From NCBI RefSeq assembly GCF_000009905.1, contig NC_006177.1, positions 1,054,001 through 1,118,000 of the forward strand: a stretch of 64,000 nucleotides of DNA, written 5' to 3'. Position numbers and translations under genes: made by a program. Source of the DNA: Symbiobacterium thermophilum IAM 14863. Its GTDB lineage: Bacteria > Bacillota > Sulfobacillia > Symbiobacteriales > Symbiobacteriaceae. The notes under the pieces are model-generated. The model had not been told where the DNA came from, ran no database searches, and worked only from the letters and a program-made list of their open reading frames with translations. Shown here in pieces: positions 5,127 through 49,085 of this stretch; the stretch's first letter is position 1, and each line of letters starts with the position of its first letter.

Positions 5127-5516
5127 TCACCCCTGGCCCGGCAGCGGGCAGCCGGTCTCGTCGCACTGTCCGACCGGCACGATCGCCCGCCGACGGGCGA
5201 TGAAGTCGTAGAGGGGCTGCCCCAGCCCGGTGACCCCGGCCAGGGCCAGCAACGGCCAGAGCGGCCAGAGGAGGGGGAGGCGCGCGGCGATCGCGGCGAC
5301 CGCCCAGATGCCCTCCGCCCAGCGTCCCGTGCGGGGGGTGTGGACGTGCAGCCGGGCTGCGAGCCGCTCCGGCGCCACACCGGCTCGCTCGGCCACGCCC
5401 GGGTCCCGGATGGAGACGAACTCCAGCCGCCCCAGCCAGTCCAGCCGGGCCAGCCGCTGCCGGGCCGCTGTGCAGAGCGGGCACCATCCGTCGTAGAACA
5501 CCGTGATCGGCTGCAC
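5127..5516 (-). CDS. DCC-family thiol-disulfide oxidoreductase-like protein (DUF393)
   Basis: The 129-residue protein starts with the family hallmark FYDGWCPLC (C12 and C15 form a CxxC pair). It ends with a typical amphipathic/hydrophobic region PLLWPLWPLLALAG and a YDFIARRR segment. DCC proteins are predicted thioredoxin-fold redox proteins without an established partner. The start is a GTG at 5516, read from the minus strand, with a G-rich SD region just upstream. The upstream side of the gene is the repeat array at 5606-6290, so its promoter must lie within or near that array. Confidence 0.82.
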   Translation of the reverse strand: MQPITVFYDGWCPLCTAARQRLARLDWLGRLEFVSIRDPGVAERAGVAPERLAARLHVHTPRTGRWAEGIWAVAAIAARLPLLWPLWPLLALAGVTGLGQPLYDFIARRRAIVPVGQCDETGCPLPGQG

Positions 5517-5605
5517 CCGACATCACCCCTTCGACTGATATCCCTTCTGCCATTGTACAACGCGCCGGCCGGGGCGGGCCAGTCGCGTGGGGCCGCGCTG
5601 TCGTC

Positions 5606-6290
5606 CAAGTGAGACGGATTGGCACTTCGTCCACAGGCGACGTGAAAATCTGTCGCAATTGGTGTCCTGGGACCGACTCCTTCACCTATCAACGGTTCGG
5701 CGTGGGTCAGAGGCGCAGCCCAAGTGAGACAGATTTTCACTTGGTCCGTATGCGAAGTGGAAACTTGTCGCAGTTCCCGTTCCCGAAACCGACTCCTTTA
5801 CCTATCAACTGTTTGGCGTGGGGCAGAGGCGCAGCCCAAGTGAGACAGATTTTCACTTGGTCCGTATGCGAAGTGGAAATTTGTCGCAGTTCCCGTTCCC
5901 GAAACCGACTCCTTTACCTATCAACTGTTTGGCGTGGGGCAGGGGCGCAACCCAAGTGAGACAGATTTGCACTTCGTCCGCAGGCGAAGTGAAAATCCGT
6001 CGCAGTTCCCGTTCCCGAAACCGACTCCTTCACCTATCAACTGTTTGGCGTGGGGCAGAGGCGCAGCCCAAGTGAGACAGATTTGCACTTCGTCCGTAGG
6101 TGAAGTGAAAATCCGTCGCAGTTCCCATTCCCGAAACCGACTCCTTCACCTATCAACTGTTTGGCGTGGGGCAGGGGCGCAACCCAAGTGAGACAGATTT
6201 GCACTTCGTCCGCAGGCGAAGTGCAAATTCGTCGCAGCTCGTGCCCTGGGACCGACTCCTTACTCCTCAACGACCCAGGCTGGGGCTGGG
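5606..6290. repeat. Tandem array of six 116-bp hairpin-containing repeats
   Basis: Six head-to-tail copies begin with CAAGTGAGAC at 5606, 5721, 5837, 5953, 6069 and 6185, giving spacings of 115, 116, 116, 116 and 116 bases. The first and last copies differ from the middle four in the second half: a CCTGGGACCGACTCC segment replaces CCCGAAACCGACTCC. Each unit carries inverted AAGTG/CACTT elements. In copies 2-3 CCAAGTGA pairs with TCACTTGG; in copies 4-6 ATTTGCACTTCG or a close variant pairs with the downstream CGAAGTG element. The period is not a multiple of three and no ribosome-binding signal fits, so it is judged non-coding. It fills most of the 875-bp space between two divergent genes. Confidence 0.93.
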
Positions 6291-6391
6291 GTGCCAGACC
6301 ACAACGATCTGCCGCGGGGTGAAAGGAATCTGCACCAGCGGAACTCGCCCGCTGCGCCGAATCGTCCAACCTTTCAGAAGGGGTGATCGCG

Positions 6392-7741
6392 ATGCGGCGG
6401 TGGTTGGCGGGTTGCCTGGTTGGCTTCATGACCGTCATGGCCGGATGCGCGCCGAGGGAGGGCGGCGCGCCCCGGCCGACGGGTCAGGAACCGCCGGCCG
6501 TTGCGGGTCAGGAACCGCAGGCGGCTCAGGGCCCGGCCAGGGCGGAGGTTCCGGGCGGTCCGGGGGCGCCGGTGCGGGAGGAGATCCCCGGCGGCTTCCG
6601 GCTGGGCCCGTTCGACGAGTCAGGGAGCGCGTGGTGGTTGAGCCCGGACGCGGTCTGGGTTTACGCCAAGGTCGGGGGCGCGGCGCGCTACGGGGCGGTG
6701 TCGCTCGCGGGAGGCGGCCTGGAGCCCGGTCCGGGCCACGATCCGGAAGATCTGCCGTACTGGGACCGCTGGCACCTGCTGCTGAGTCCTGACGCCGGGC
6801 GCGCCGTGGTGTACTCCTTCCACGGTTTCGACCGCACCTTCGTCGACCGGGAGACCGGGGCCGTATCGGAGCCGCAGGCGCCGAACTTCGGCGGCAGTCA
6901 TATGTTCGATTCCTGGTCCCCGGACGGCAGCCGCTTCCTGGTCCAGTCCGTCCGCACCGACCCGGTGCCGGGGTTCTATTTCCTGGACCGGGACGGCAAC
7001 CCGGCAGGTACCTTCGCCGAGCCCGGCTACTACAGCCACCGGGGCGTCTGGTCGCCGGACGGGAAGCGCCTGGCGTTCCTTTCGGTGCCGGCGGACCTCT
7101 TCTACCCGCGCATCCCGGAGGAGTGGGAGGAGCCGCCCTACGGGGAGCGGGTGGGAGTGCTGGACCCGGAGACCGGCCGGGTGACCTACTTCGCCATAGA
7201 CGGGCTCACGTTCTACGCGCACCCGGTGTGGTCGCCGGACGGTGAGCGGCTGGCGGTCGTCTGCGGCGAGCGGACCACCGTCCGGCTGGACGGTCCGTGG
7301 GAGGGGTATGAGACGACCCGGCTCCGCGGGCCCCGGCCCTGCCTGATCGACCCGGAGGCGGGCACGATTGCGCCCATGGGCGACCCCGCGGAGGGGGACG
7401 TGACCATCGTGATTCTGGGCCTCGCGGATGAGGCGGCGCTGGTGGCCTGGGCGCGGCCGTCGGACGGCGCGGGCTACGGCTGGGTCCCCCTGGGCGGCGG
7501 TGCTCTGGTGGATCTGGGCGGGACGTGGTCGGTGGAGGGCGCACAGTTGGTGGCCGGTGGACGGGCCGCCCTGACGGGGCAGTTGCTGCCCAACAAGCTG
7601 GTTCTGTTCAACCAGCGGGGCGAGGTGGAGCGCATCCTGGCTGAGGGTGCCATCCAGGGGCTGACCGCGAGCCCCGACGGCCGGCACGTGGCCTTCTTCG
7701 ACGGCGGGTACCTGACGGTGCTGCGGGTGCCGGAGGAATAG
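6392..7741 (+). CDS. Secreted lipoprotein with TolB/WD40-like beta-propeller
   Basis: The 449-residue protein has a lipoprotein signal peptide (MRRWLAGCLVGF then VMAGC, lipid-modified Cys about residue 18). A Pro/Gly/Ala/Glu-rich linker of about 45 residues follows. The rest repeats SWSPDG-type blades: DSWSPDGSR, GVWSPDGKR, PVWSPDGER and TASPDGRH. That pattern marks a TolB/PD40 propeller, used for binding proteins or peptides outside the membrane. The ATG at 6392 is preceded by AAGGGG eight bases upstream. No enzymatic domain is attached, so the ligand is unknown. The gene lies immediately downstream of the repeat array. Confidence 0.8.
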   Translation: MRRWLAGCLVGFMTVMAGCAPREGGAPRPTGQEPPAVAGQEPQAAQGPARAEVPGGPGAPVREEIPGGFRLGPFDESGSAWWLSPDAVWVYAKVGGAARYGAVSLAGGGLEPGPGHDPEDLPYWDRWHLLLSPDAGRAVVYSFHGFDRTFVDRETGAVSEPQAPNFGGSHMFDSWSPDGSRFLVQSVRTDPVPGFYFLDRDGNPAGTFAEPGYYSHRGVWSPDGKRLAFLSVPADLFYPRIPEEWEEPPYGERVGVLDPETGRVTYFAIDGLTFYAHPVWSPDGERLAVVCGERTTVRLDGPWEGYETTRLRGPRPCLIDPEAGTIAPMGDPAEGDVTIVILGLADEAALVAWARPSDGAGYGWVPLGGGALVDLGGTWSVEGAQLVAGGRAALTGQLLPNKLVLFNQRGEVERILAEGAIQGLTASPDGRHVAFFDGGYLTVLRVPEE

Positions 7742-43604: not shown

Positions 43605-45194
43605 ATGGCAGGTCACAAGCCCAGAGGCGTGTTCCGCGCGTTCTGCCTTGTGCTGATCATCGCGGTGGCCGCGGCGTTGCTGGCGGCCGCCGCGGCGGTG
43701 CCGGCGGCGTCGCAGGCGCCGCCGGCTCAGCACGGGGCCCTGCAGGCAGGGTCCGGTCGCCTGCCGGTGTCCGACCAGGACGGGGCGACGGCCGAAGCGC
43801 CCGGCTCGGCGGAGGCGCCCCGGGCACCTGCGGCCGGTTCGCCGGACAGGCCTGAGATCGCCCTGCGGTCGCCGACCCTGCGGTCCCCATCCTTGTCTGA
43901 CGTCGCGCAGACAGCCGAACGGCCCTCCGAGGCGGAGCCTGCCGTGCCGCGTCCGCCCCGGGTGTGCACCGGCGCCATTCCCTTCGGCGGCGCGGCGGCT
44001 GCCGGGGAGGCGCTGCCGTACGGCGGCGGCGCCGCCGCGCTTCCCGCCGACGGCCTTGCCGGGTTGGAGGAGGCCCTCCACGCCTACGTGTCTGCCCTGA
44101 GCGGCACCTATGGGGTGGCCGTGGTGGATCTCTCCACCGGGGCGACGGTGTCGGTGGGGGGCGACCAGGTCTTTGTCGCGGCCTCCACCTTCAAGGTGCC
44201 GCTGGCCATGTACGTCTTCTCCCTGGTCGAGCGGGGCGAGGCCGACCTGGCCGAACCCCTTTACTACGCGCCGGAGGACTGGGAGGGCGGCAGCGGCATC
44301 CTCCACGGGTCGATCGCGGGCGACTGCTACACGGTGGCGGAGCTGGTGCACCTGTCCCTCACCGTCAGCGACAACATCGCCACCAACATGCTGCTGCGCC
44401 GGTTCGGCGAGCAGAACGTGTTCGCCTACATGCGGGAGCTGGGCGGGACGGTGACCAACCTGTCCACCGGCCGGCGGGCGACCACGCCCCGGGACATGGC
44501 CCTGTACATGGAAGTGGCCTATCGCCGGGCCGCGGGGGACGACGGCGGGCTGTACCGCACCCTGCTCGGGCTCCTCACCCAGACGGCCTTTTCCGACCGC
44601 ATCGCGGCCGGGGCGCCGTCGGGGGTTTCGGTCGCGCACAAGATCGGCACACTGCCCGCCATGGTGCACGACGTCGGCATCGTGTTCCTGCAGGATCGGC
44701 CCTTCGCCATCGCGCTCTTCAGCTCGGGGGTCAACGAGTCCGTCGCTGCCGCCAGTCTGGCGGACATCACCCGCCTCGTCAGCGGGTTCCTGCTGACCGG
44801 AACGGTCCCCGCGTGGTCGGTCCCTGGGGGCGCTGGGCCCGACCAGGGCGGCACGCCCCCGCAGGATGCTGCCCGGGAGCCGGCCGAGGCGACGCCGGAT
44901 GGCGCCGCTTCCGACCAGGGCGGTATGCCCCCGCAGGACGCCCCCCGCGAGCCCGCCGAGGCGACGCCGGACGGCGCCGCTTCCGACCAGGGCGATATGC
45001 CCCCGCAGGACGCCCCCCGCGAGCCGGCCGAGGCGACGGCGGACGGCGCCGCTTCCGACCAGGGCGGTATGCCCCCGCAGGACGCCCCCCGCGAGCCGGC
45101 CGAGGCGACGGCGGACGGCGCCGCTTCCGACCAGGGCGGCACGCCCCCGCAGGACGCCCCCCGCGAGCCGGCCGAGGCGACGCCGGGCGGGTAG
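43605..45194 (+). CDS. Secreted beta-lactamase-fold serine hydrolase with C-terminal 24-residue repeats
   Basis: The 529-residue exported protein has an N-terminal signal (about 1-36) and an Ala/Pro-rich linker to about 150. A class A beta-lactamase-like domain follows: S194-x-x-K197 in ASTFK, SDN at 255-257 and KIG at 346-348. The omega-loop Glu of class A enzymes has no counterpart between LGGTVTNLSTGRR and TTPRDMA, so true beta-lactamase activity is doubtful; a transpeptidase/peptidase role is equally possible. The tail (413-529) holds about five 24-residue Asp-Gln-Gly/Pro-Pro-Gln repeats. SD GGGGAAGG precedes ATG. Confidence 0.8.
   Translation: MAGHKPRGVFRAFCLVLIIAVAAALLAAAAAVPAASQAPPAQHGALQAGSGRLPVSDQDGATAEAPGSAEAPRAPAAGSPDRPEIALRSPTLRSPSLSDVAQTAERPSEAEPAVPRPPRVCTGAIPFGGAAAAGEALPYGGGAAALPADGLAGLEEALHAYVSALSGTYGVAVVDLSTGATVSVGGDQVFVAASTFKVPLAMYVFSLVERGEADLAEPLYYAPEDWEGGSGILHGSIAGDCYTVAELVHLSLTVSDNIATNMLLRRFGEQNVFAYMRELGGTVTNLSTGRRATTPRDMALYMEVAYRRAAGDDGGLYRTLLGLLTQTAFSDRIAAGAPSGVSVAHKIGTLPAMVHDVGIVFLQDRPFAIALFSSGVNESVAAASLADITRLVSGFLLTGTVPAWSVPGGAGPDQGGTPPQDAAREPAEATPDGAASDQGGMPPQDAPREPAEATPDGAASDQGDMPPQDAPREPAEATADGAASDQGGMPPQDAPREPAEATADGAASDQGGTPPQDAPREPAEATPGG
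44841..45191 (+). repeat. 72-bp coding tandem repeats (about 5 copies)
   Basis: In-frame repeats of 72 bases encode units like DQGGMPPQDAPREPAEAT plus DGAAS. Copies differ by single substitutions (Pro/Ala, Gly/Asp, Met/Thr), indicating recent expansion. Confidence 0.9.
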
Positions 45195-47154: not shown

Positions 47155-47551
47155 GTGTGCCCGGCATGGGCGCTGACTTGGCGGTGAAAGTCCGCTACGG
47201 GCGAGGCAGCACCAGCCCGTTAGCCAAAGGCAAGGGTGTCTGTCGTGAGGCGGAATCTGAAGGAAGCCCGAGGCAAAGCCACGACCCGAGGAACACGAAC
47301 CCCATAGGAGGCTGTGCCGCTCGGGTGAGCTGGCCGAACACAGCAAAACCCGAAGCTGCCAAAGGGCGGTGCGGTAGATGGGGCGGGTGCGGGGTGAAGG
47401 TCAGCGTCCTTACCCGGGGAGGTCTGCCGGGAACGCCAGCAACGCTGGTAACCTGCGTCGGGAGACGCAGCTGAACCGGCAGAAGTCAGCAAAGGCCATA
47501 GTACCGGCAGGGGGACGCCCCAACCGGGAAGGGCCGAACGTCAGGAAAGGG

Positions 47552-49000
47552 GTGAACCCGTTGCGTTCGAGCAGCCCGCGACAAACGCAGAAGACCCCGA
47601 ACGGGACCTGCTCGCCGGAAGTAGCGGTGAAGCCGCAAGGGACGGCGAGAGGGCGGAGTGGGCAGCCGGCACAAGACGGAACGTCACCCCGCGGGGAGCA
47701 CAGCAACCTGATGGAGCAGGTGGTGGCCAGGGAGAACATGCTGGCCGCCCTGAAACGGGTGGAGCGGAACGGAGGCGCTCCCGGCGTGGACGGTGTCCCC
47801 ACCGAACGGCTGCGGGACCAGATTCGCGTGGAGTGGAGCCGCATCCGTGAGGAACTGCTCCAGGGGACCTACAGACCGCAGCCAGTCCGCCGGGTCGAAA
47901 TCCCGAAACCGGGCGGCGGCAAGCGGATGCTGGGGATTCCCACCGTGATGGACCGCCTGATCCAACAGGCACTCCTGCAAGTACTGACGCCGATCTTTGA
48001 CCCGACATTCTCCGAATCCAGCTACGGCTTTCGGCCGGGGCGGCGGGGTCATGATGCGGTCAGGAAGGCACGTCAGTACGTGGAGGAAGGGTACGACTGG
48101 GTCGTGGACATGGACCTGGAGAAGTTCTTCGACCGGGTCAACCACGACGTGCTGATGGCCCGCGTGGCGCGGCGGGTAACGGATAAGCGTGTGCTGCGGC
48201 TGATCCGGCGGTACTTACAGGCCGGGGTCATGCTGAACGGGGTGGTCGTGGCGACGGAGGAAGGGACGCCGCAGGGCGGTCCGCTGAGTCCGCTGCTGGC
48301 GAACATCCTGCTGGATGACCTCGACAAGGAGCTGGAGCGCCGTGGCCACCACTTTGTCCGGTACGCCGATGACTGCAACATCTACGTCCGCAGCAAGCGG
48401 GCGGGAGAACGGGTCTACAGGAGCGTGCGCCACTTCCTGCAGGAGCGGTTACGGCTGAAGGTCAACGAGGAGAAGAGCGCAGTGGACCGGCCGTGGAAGC
48501 GGCAGTTCCTCGGGTTTAGCTTCTACAAGCACCGGGGAGTGCGCATCCGGCTGGCCCCGAAGAGCCTGAAACGCGTGAAGGACAAGCTCCGCACGCTGAC
48601 GGACCGCAACCGCAGCCAGAGCATGGAGGACCGAATCCGGTGCCTGAATGCCTACTTGCGGGGCTGGGTTGGGTACTATGCGCTCTCCGATGCCAGGTCA
48701 GCCTTTGAAAGACTCGAAGGATGGCTGAAGCGTCGGCTGCGAGCATGCGTATGGAGGCAGTGGAAGCGTGTACGCACGCGCTTTCGGGAGTTGCGCGCCC
48801 TCGGTTTGCCCGAATGGGTAGTCTACCAACTCGCCAACAGCCGCAAAGGCCCGTGGCGGATGGCAGGTGGCCCACTAAACAGCGCCCTGGGCGACGCCTA
48901 CTGGCGTGCCCAGGGGCTGATAAGCCTGACCGAATGCTATGAAGCGACTCGTCAATCCTGGCGAACCGCCGGATGCGGACTCGCATGTCCGGTGGTGTGA
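47552..49000 (+). CDS. Group IIC intron reverse transcriptase/maturase
   Basis: The 482-residue protein has RT domains: the N-terminal GGAPGVDGV (RT1), SSYGFRPGRRGHDAV (RT2-2a), DWVVDMDLEKFFDRVNH (RT3), TPQGGPLSPLLANILLDDLD (RT4) and the active site YADD in HFVRYADDCNIYV (RT5). The maturase X domain at the C-terminus has YLRGWVGYYA. There is no HNH endonuclease. Start candidates are GTG 47552 or TTG 47561, the latter with better SD spacing to AAAGGGG. The stop lies within the ribozyme's 3' core. Confidence 0.9.
   Translation: MNPLRSSSPRQTQKTPNGTCSPEVAVKPQGTARGRSGQPAQDGTSPRGEHSNLMEQVVARENMLAALKRVERNGGAPGVDGVPTERLRDQIRVEWSRIREELLQGTYRPQPVRRVEIPKPGGGKRMLGIPTVMDRLIQQALLQVLTPIFDPTFSESSYGFRPGRRGHDAVRKARQYVEEGYDWVVDMDLEKFFDRVNHDVLMARVARRVTDKRVLRLIRRYLQAGVMLNGVVVATEEGTPQGGPLSPLLANILLDDLDKELERRGHHFVRYADDCNIYVRSKRAGERVYRSVRHFLQERLRLKVNEEKSAVDRPWKRQFLGFSFYKHRGVRIRLAPKSLKRVKDKLRTLTDRNRSQSMEDRIRCLNAYLRGWVGYYALSDARSAFERLEGWLKRRLRACVWRQWKRVRTRFRELRALGLPEWVVYQLANSRKGPWRMAGGPLNSALGDAYWRAQGLISLTECYEATRQSWRTAGCGLACPVV
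48966..48995 (+). ncRNA. Group II intron domain V
   Basis: The catalytic helix has a CCGCCGGA/TCCGGTGG lower stem, a TG bulge and a TGCG/CGCA upper stem capped by GACT. A CGC triad lies in the lower helix as in class C. Confidence 0.85.
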
Positions 49001-49085
49001 GAGGACGGGGGCTAGCCGCCCCCTCCTACTCGATTACACCGCATCGGGCTTCTCCGGGTGGACGCCGGCCGGCGGCGCCCGAAGC

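Follow-up and report, generated by a model that had tools for sequence, protein, structure and literature searches.

A tandem palindromic array of Symbiobacterium thermophilum is an orphan copy of a dispersed intergenic repeat, probably paired with a Vsr-like nuclease gene

We analysed a 64,000-nucleotide stretch of the genome of Symbiobacterium thermophilum IAM 14863 (NC_006177.1, positions 1,054,001 to 1,118,000; hereafter the window) and a tandem array of short palindromic repeats in it. As the initial annotation had proposed, the array lies between two divergent genes, a DCC1-like gene on the left and a gene with PD40 propeller repeats on the right. Tandem Repeats Finder (TRF) placed the array at 5605-6237 of the window, with a period of 116, 5.5 copies, 91% match, and a score of 972. 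The core-to-core steps across its six units were 115, 116, 116, 116, and 116. These values bear out the annotated copy number and spacing, and the period is not divisible by three. Each unit consists of a 54-bp imperfect palindrome (a 21-bp arm, a 12-bp centre, and a second 21-bp arm) followed by a linker of about 61 bp. The units resemble one another, and the linkers are about 90% identical inside the array (window TRF and unit comparison). Two stems had been read as mutually exclusive, and their sequences are present: CCAAGTGA with TCACTTGG in copies 2-3, and ATTTGCACTTCG with CGAAGTGCAAAT in copy 6. Both stems are pieces of a single imperfect inverted repeat that is larger than either. In addition, the first and last copies do have CTGGGACCGACTCC in common, whereas the inner copies have CGAAACCGACTCC. 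The features of the locus are as follows.

5604..6299, + strand: whole tandem array, six palindrome and linker units (TRF and unit alignment)
5604-5719, 5720-5835, 5836-5951, + strand: units 1-3 (unit alignment)
5952-6067, 6068-6183, 6184-6299, + strand: units 4-6 (unit alignment)
5607..5660, + strand: palindrome 1 (left arm 5607-5627, centre 5628-5639, right arm 5640-5660)
5722..5775, + strand: palindrome 2 (arms 5722-5742 and 5755-5775)
5838..5891, + strand: palindrome 3
5954..6007, + strand: palindrome 4
6070..6123, + strand: palindrome 5
6186..6239, + strand: palindrome 6
6008..6069, + strand: linker that separates palindromes 4 and 5, given as an example; its short motif GACTCCTTCAnnnnnTCAAC recurs in other arrays of the family
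5127..5516, - strand: left neighbour, DCC1-like thiol-disulfide oxidoreductase gene (PF04134), outside the element
6383..7741, + strand: right neighbour, lipoprotein-like protein with PD40 propeller repeats (PF07676), outside the element

The array is not confined to the window. In the own genome (G000; 3,566,135 bp, one contig), we found four further arrays with periods of 114-116, at 1555658, 2011673, 2602263, and 3134573. A sequence-only model built from 28 units, used in place of an RNA covariation model, added a solo copy at 1588793, which gives five arrays and one solo copy in total. Such recurrence goes well past what chance would produce. Furthermore, the draft genome of a congener (G003) has units on 22 contigs, with periods of mostly 114-117. 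The unit search found none in another congener (G004, 99% complete) nor in the other five genomes of the order. The palindrome is common to all arrays, and the linkers have diverged between arrays save a short motif around CTTCAnnCCTCAAC. When the core pattern was searched over 84,980 species, multi-copy matches occurred only in JAMNXV01 (G003); the matches elsewhere were single and probably due to chance, and viral contigs likewise gave single matches only. A search of the accessible literature returned nothing on the repeat itself or on a nuclease-linked palindromic array. The initial annotation had named an inert local duplication, found nowhere else, as the alternative. The arrays in the own genome and on the contigs of the relative refute it, and we give a duplication with no system behind it practically no chance.

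The initial annotation had also taken the position of the array, upstream of both neighbours, as a hint of a regulatory or structural role. The results do not support regulation. The sister arrays adjoin unrelated genes and often lie in intergenic DNA between convergent genes. Moreover, the window site is empty in G003, although that genome preserves the aminotransferase end and the DCC and propeller genes in their order. A shared neighbour gene or regulon was rejected as well, since the 20 array neighbours have ordinary, unrelated functions in Pfam. On the evidence, the window array is a stray orphan copy of a dispersed short palindromic intergenic element, and it is neither a local feature nor a regulator of its neighbours. 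We also considered a chromosome-domain or parS-like layout and rejected it: the five arrays all have + orientation and leave a gap of 1.49 Mb about the start of the record, but a gap of this kind is unremarkable for so few loci (p of about 0.4, a rough estimate made by hand and not computed by a tool).

The comparison with G003 showed that the sites change with time. At the site downstream of trpD, the six units of the own genome compare with about 1.6 at the orthologous position of G003 and none in G004. The counterpart in G003 of the array at 3134573 has four units (6 vs 4 copies). Because the window site is empty in G003 and the shared sites differ in units, arrays appear or vanish and copy number shifts at fixed sites. 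The differing copy numbers at orthologous sites and the likeness of units within each array also fit the earlier suggestion that the array grew through duplication between units. In addition, at both shared sites the two arms have changed together between the own genome and G003, matching the species consensus (GAC/GTC to GGC/GCC). This is as expected if the arms are recognised in trans, or if conversion among copies occurs genome-wide.

The arms carry mismatches at fixed positions. Among 60 units at 24 loci, most arm positions pair, often at 19-24 of the 24 loci. However, positions 3, 10, and 17 pair at only 2, 6, and 9 loci. At 19, 14, and 14 loci, respectively, the two arms have an identical base at these positions when read on one strand, either G with G or C with C. 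At any other arm position, such a same-base mismatch occurs at four loci at most. Both polarities occur in this 115-bp family. An unrelated palindrome family (family 3, described below) repeats the pattern: across four arrays, and in both polarities, position 3 has a same-base mismatch in every one of the 14 units and position 6 in 13 of them. From this conservation at fixed positions, repeated in family 3, we conclude that the mismatches are kept and are not decay. Our guess is that they keep the two arms distinguishable, or prevent a stretch long enough for cruciform extrusion.

One of the arrays led to a candidate partner. The array at 3134573 is followed by a nuclease-like gene (G000:C1:3136534), which is some 2.08 Mb away from the array in the window, and the same order is found in G003. 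Thus, the 115-bp array adjoins this gene in both genomes (L032/L210 in the own genome, L065/L215 in G003), and the product has 338-342 amino acids. At 972 kb of the own genome, another array, with 204-bp units, adjoins a paralogue. The own genome and G003 each have 7 copies of the gene family, and G004 has 6. Distant members occur elsewhere in the order, and a sample of 398 genomes from the phylum had the family in 28. Of 17 genes in the genus, 10 have a strong array (TRF score of 500 or more) within 0.5 kb on the upstream side, and none has one downstream (0/17; Fisher p = 3e-4). The distance from array to gene is 106-467 bp, always on the 5′ side, and weaker arrays lie upstream of some of the remaining genes. 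The periods of the arrays beside paralogues range from 75 to 250 bp; their sequences are distinct per array, and several are clearly palindromic.

Three minor observations concern these genes. A paralogue at about 1022 kb of G000 (L204) has a 37-bp tandem array of 7.9 copies upstream, and its orthologue in G003 (L209) has a 200-bp array instead. In G002, a gene of the family (L213) lies between 336-bp direct repeats (640-975 and 2451-2786) that are 94% identical and have palindromes inside. At the locus of the partner gene, a 59-bp GC-rich tandem repeat of 8.5 copies (L032 1343-1845) lies on the far side of the neighbouring gene.

In a Pfam search, the partner protein matched winged-helix domains only. 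For its C-terminal part, PHROG homing-endonuclease families gave matches with E-values down to 9e-14, and about 400 relatives were found in viral contigs. The residues invariant in 25 homologues include D231, E242, G245, Q247, H248 (GxQH248), T252, R267, and K271. The AlphaFold2 model consists of two winged-helix domains and a core of helix, three strands, helix, and strand; the mean predicted local distance difference test score (pLDDT) is 71, and the ten-residue blocks of the core mostly reach 71-93. Foldseek matched the model to the Vsr endonuclease (1vsr) with a probability of 1.00. The core is therefore predicted to have a Vsr/PD-(D/E)XK-like catalytic fold.

In the toxIN layout, tandem repeats lie directly upstream of a nuclease gene. 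The tandem arrays immediately upstream of a nuclease-type gene recall this layout, and the array could be an RNA element, transcribed as a chain of hairpins, for example a type III antitoxin-like RNA for a nuclease toxin. We consider this very improbable. The alternative RNA hairpins of the initial annotation found no support: RNAalifold gave zero pairs on 28 units (no covariation), Rfam had no match at the window array, and the mismatches are conserved at the three arm positions. On the unit strand, per-locus A-C mismatches (48) outnumber G-T (25). In addition, there are many orphan arrays, the repeats measure 75-250 bp, and a DNA-binding protein with winged helices and a Vsr-like fold stands in place of the ToxN RNase and its fold.

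Gene and repeat also co-occur across genomes. The gene clade next to the 115-bp arrays (L210/L215) is present in the own genome and in G003 and has no orthologue in G004 in the tree, and the units follow the same pattern. The gene clade of a second family (AATGTGCACTTTC; L221/L224) is also present in the own genome and G003, with 23 and 37 dispersed arm matches, respectively, and none in G004, G001, and G002; a reversed-pattern control gave 0. The third family (AASTGWAACTCCATGAGCCAC) has its gene in G004 (L211), where 29 dispersed matches were found, against none in the own genome and one weak match (3 mismatches) in G003. No nuclease gene lies alongside the fetched orphan arrays of families 2 and 3. 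Thus, in three independent families, dispersed repeats are found where the gene is present and are missing where it is absent, save the one weak family 3 match. We consider it quite probable that gene and repeats form a cognate pair. The repeats could also be passive, of the MIRU/VNTR (mycobacterial interspersed repetitive unit/variable number tandem repeat) or BOX kind, spread by recombination or by host or insertion sequence (IS) enzymes, with the nuclease genes merely carrying copies. They are indeed tandem, dispersed, intergenic, and variable in copy number. However, passive repeats would hardly track the presence of their own nuclease clade in three unrelated families, nor stand as strong arrays upstream of the genes and never downstream. 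In addition, MIRU/VNTR and BOX elements differ from these repeats, which have a large palindromic core with mismatches at set positions and are linked to a family of nuclease genes. We regard this explanation as improbable.

In our preferred reading, to which we give a probability of roughly 60%, the palindromic element is dispersed and amplified in tandem, it relies on a dedicated DNA-binding nuclease that acts in trans, and the window array is one of its orphans. A dimer of the cognate protein, which has two winged-helix domains and a Vsr-like nuclease core, would bind the 54-bp pseudo-palindrome with one monomer on each 21-bp arm and would cut or nick near the 12-bp centre. Repair of the break from an adjacent unit could expand, contract, and homogenise the array, and occasional repair or capture elsewhere could give new intergenic copies such as the window array. 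That cutting by the nuclease drives the spread or amplification of the repeats is a separate claim, and we rate it slightly below even odds.

Several points weigh against this reading. Binding, dimerisation, and cleavage by the nuclease, and amplification and spread through cleavage, are all steps that we infer. The Foldseek match to Vsr is weak (E-value 0.039, TM-score to target 0.53), and the PDB has no sequence match for the nuclease core. Two genus genes (L203 and L216) have no array, and a third (L198) has a single degenerate unit only. Outside the genus, upstream inverted repeats occur at only some homologues. An IS that carries a DDE transposase (L032 3908-4963) separates the 115-bp array from the nuclease gene in the own genome and is absent there in G003; because this IS intervenes, the array is about 1.3 kb upstream of L210. 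A further set of palindrome arrays in G003 (family B, GGAACCGC[A/C]A[G/C]TTTTnCGCTT; for example L186-L196 and L068 4238-4480), with a period of 201-212 and arms that differ at fixed positions, has no nuclease gene beside the fetched arrays. At the window site, no clean target-site duplication can be read, as the flanks are too diverged. Finally, the comparison set comprises three congeneric genomes, two of which are drafts.

The most serious competing explanation holds that the arrays are operators. The protein would be mainly a transcriptional or nucleoid DNA-binder that represses its own gene, the orphans would be regulon or architectural sites, and the nuclease activity would be lost or irrelevant. 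The constant 5′ position 106-467 bp from the genes, the two winged-helix domains, and a 115-bp period close to 11 helical turns are in its favour, and the coordinated species-wide change of the arms is compatible with recognition in trans. However, the orphans adjoin unrelated genes, often convergent ones, and sites were gained or lost between congeners. Furthermore, the proposed catalytic residues are invariant in the 25 homologues, and the periods of other families (160-250 bp) are not all multiples of a helical turn. We consider operator arrays unlikely.

Among known systems, REPIN/RAYT offers the closest comparison. REPINs are inverted doublets, dispersed and partly in tandem clusters, that are tied to single-copy enzyme genes (PMC3116915). 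The elements described here are likewise short inverted doublets able to fold as a hairpin (here 21-12-21 palindromes), are intergenic and dispersed in partly ordered tandem clusters with flanks, and have one distinct single-copy enzyme gene with adjoining repeats per family, with diverse families per genome. However, a Y1_Tnp (PF01797) protein was found in none of the five family genomes, including the own genome, and the controls were positive. Because the Y1 transposase is absent, the elements do not belong to REPIN/RAYT, and the likeness in working remains. They differ further in that no GTAG/CGTC tag is conserved where the arms end (judged by inspection of the counts per position), in having 21-bp arms with conserved mismatches and strong arrays upstream of the gene only, and in their partner, a two-winged-helix Vsr-like nuclease. 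The best reading of this comparison is a repeat and enzyme pair of the REPIN/RAYT sort with an apparently unrelated enzyme.

Other comparisons are more distant. I-Bth0305I, an EDxHD enzyme, forms a dimer on a DNA target almost 60 bp long (PMC3943268), a scale similar to that of the 54-bp palindrome, and this parallel is suggestive only. The EDxHD/Vsr-like homing endonucleases share with our protein the related phage homing-endonuclease profiles and the Vsr-like core fold. However, our genes have no intron location, their products have two N-terminal winged-helix domains and putative nuclease activity, and the repeats are dispersed palindromic arrays rather than one cognate allele. The arrays also recall CRISPR in their palindromic repeat at a regular period, but the stretches between the palindromes are repeated within an array, and there are no unique spacers.

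Tentatively, and with more doubt than confidence, we propose an undescribed class of bacterial selfish DNA, in which the dimer of each paralogous two-winged-helix Vsr-like nuclease may propagate a private pseudo-palindrome as tandem arrays through break repair, the mismatches keeping the arms distinguishable or blocking the cruciform. In bacteria, the maintenance of tiny palindromic repeats by a resident single-copy enzyme is best documented for REPIN/RAYT. If our proposal is true, a second, unrelated enzyme has the same arrangement, and the persistence and multiplication of such repeats would become testable by comparison. In addition, a gene family without a known role, with matches only to generic winged-helix and phage homing-nuclease models, gains a predicted DNA target for each member. 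Mismatches that are conserved within a palindrome also form an unusual constraint, and every mechanism has to account for them.

Two other features were seen in the window. A group II intron lies at 47239-49034 (Rfam D1-D4 and Intron_gpII matches), and a 72-bp tandem repeat of 4.9 copies lies at 44839-45190; its period is divisible by three, so it is perhaps coding.
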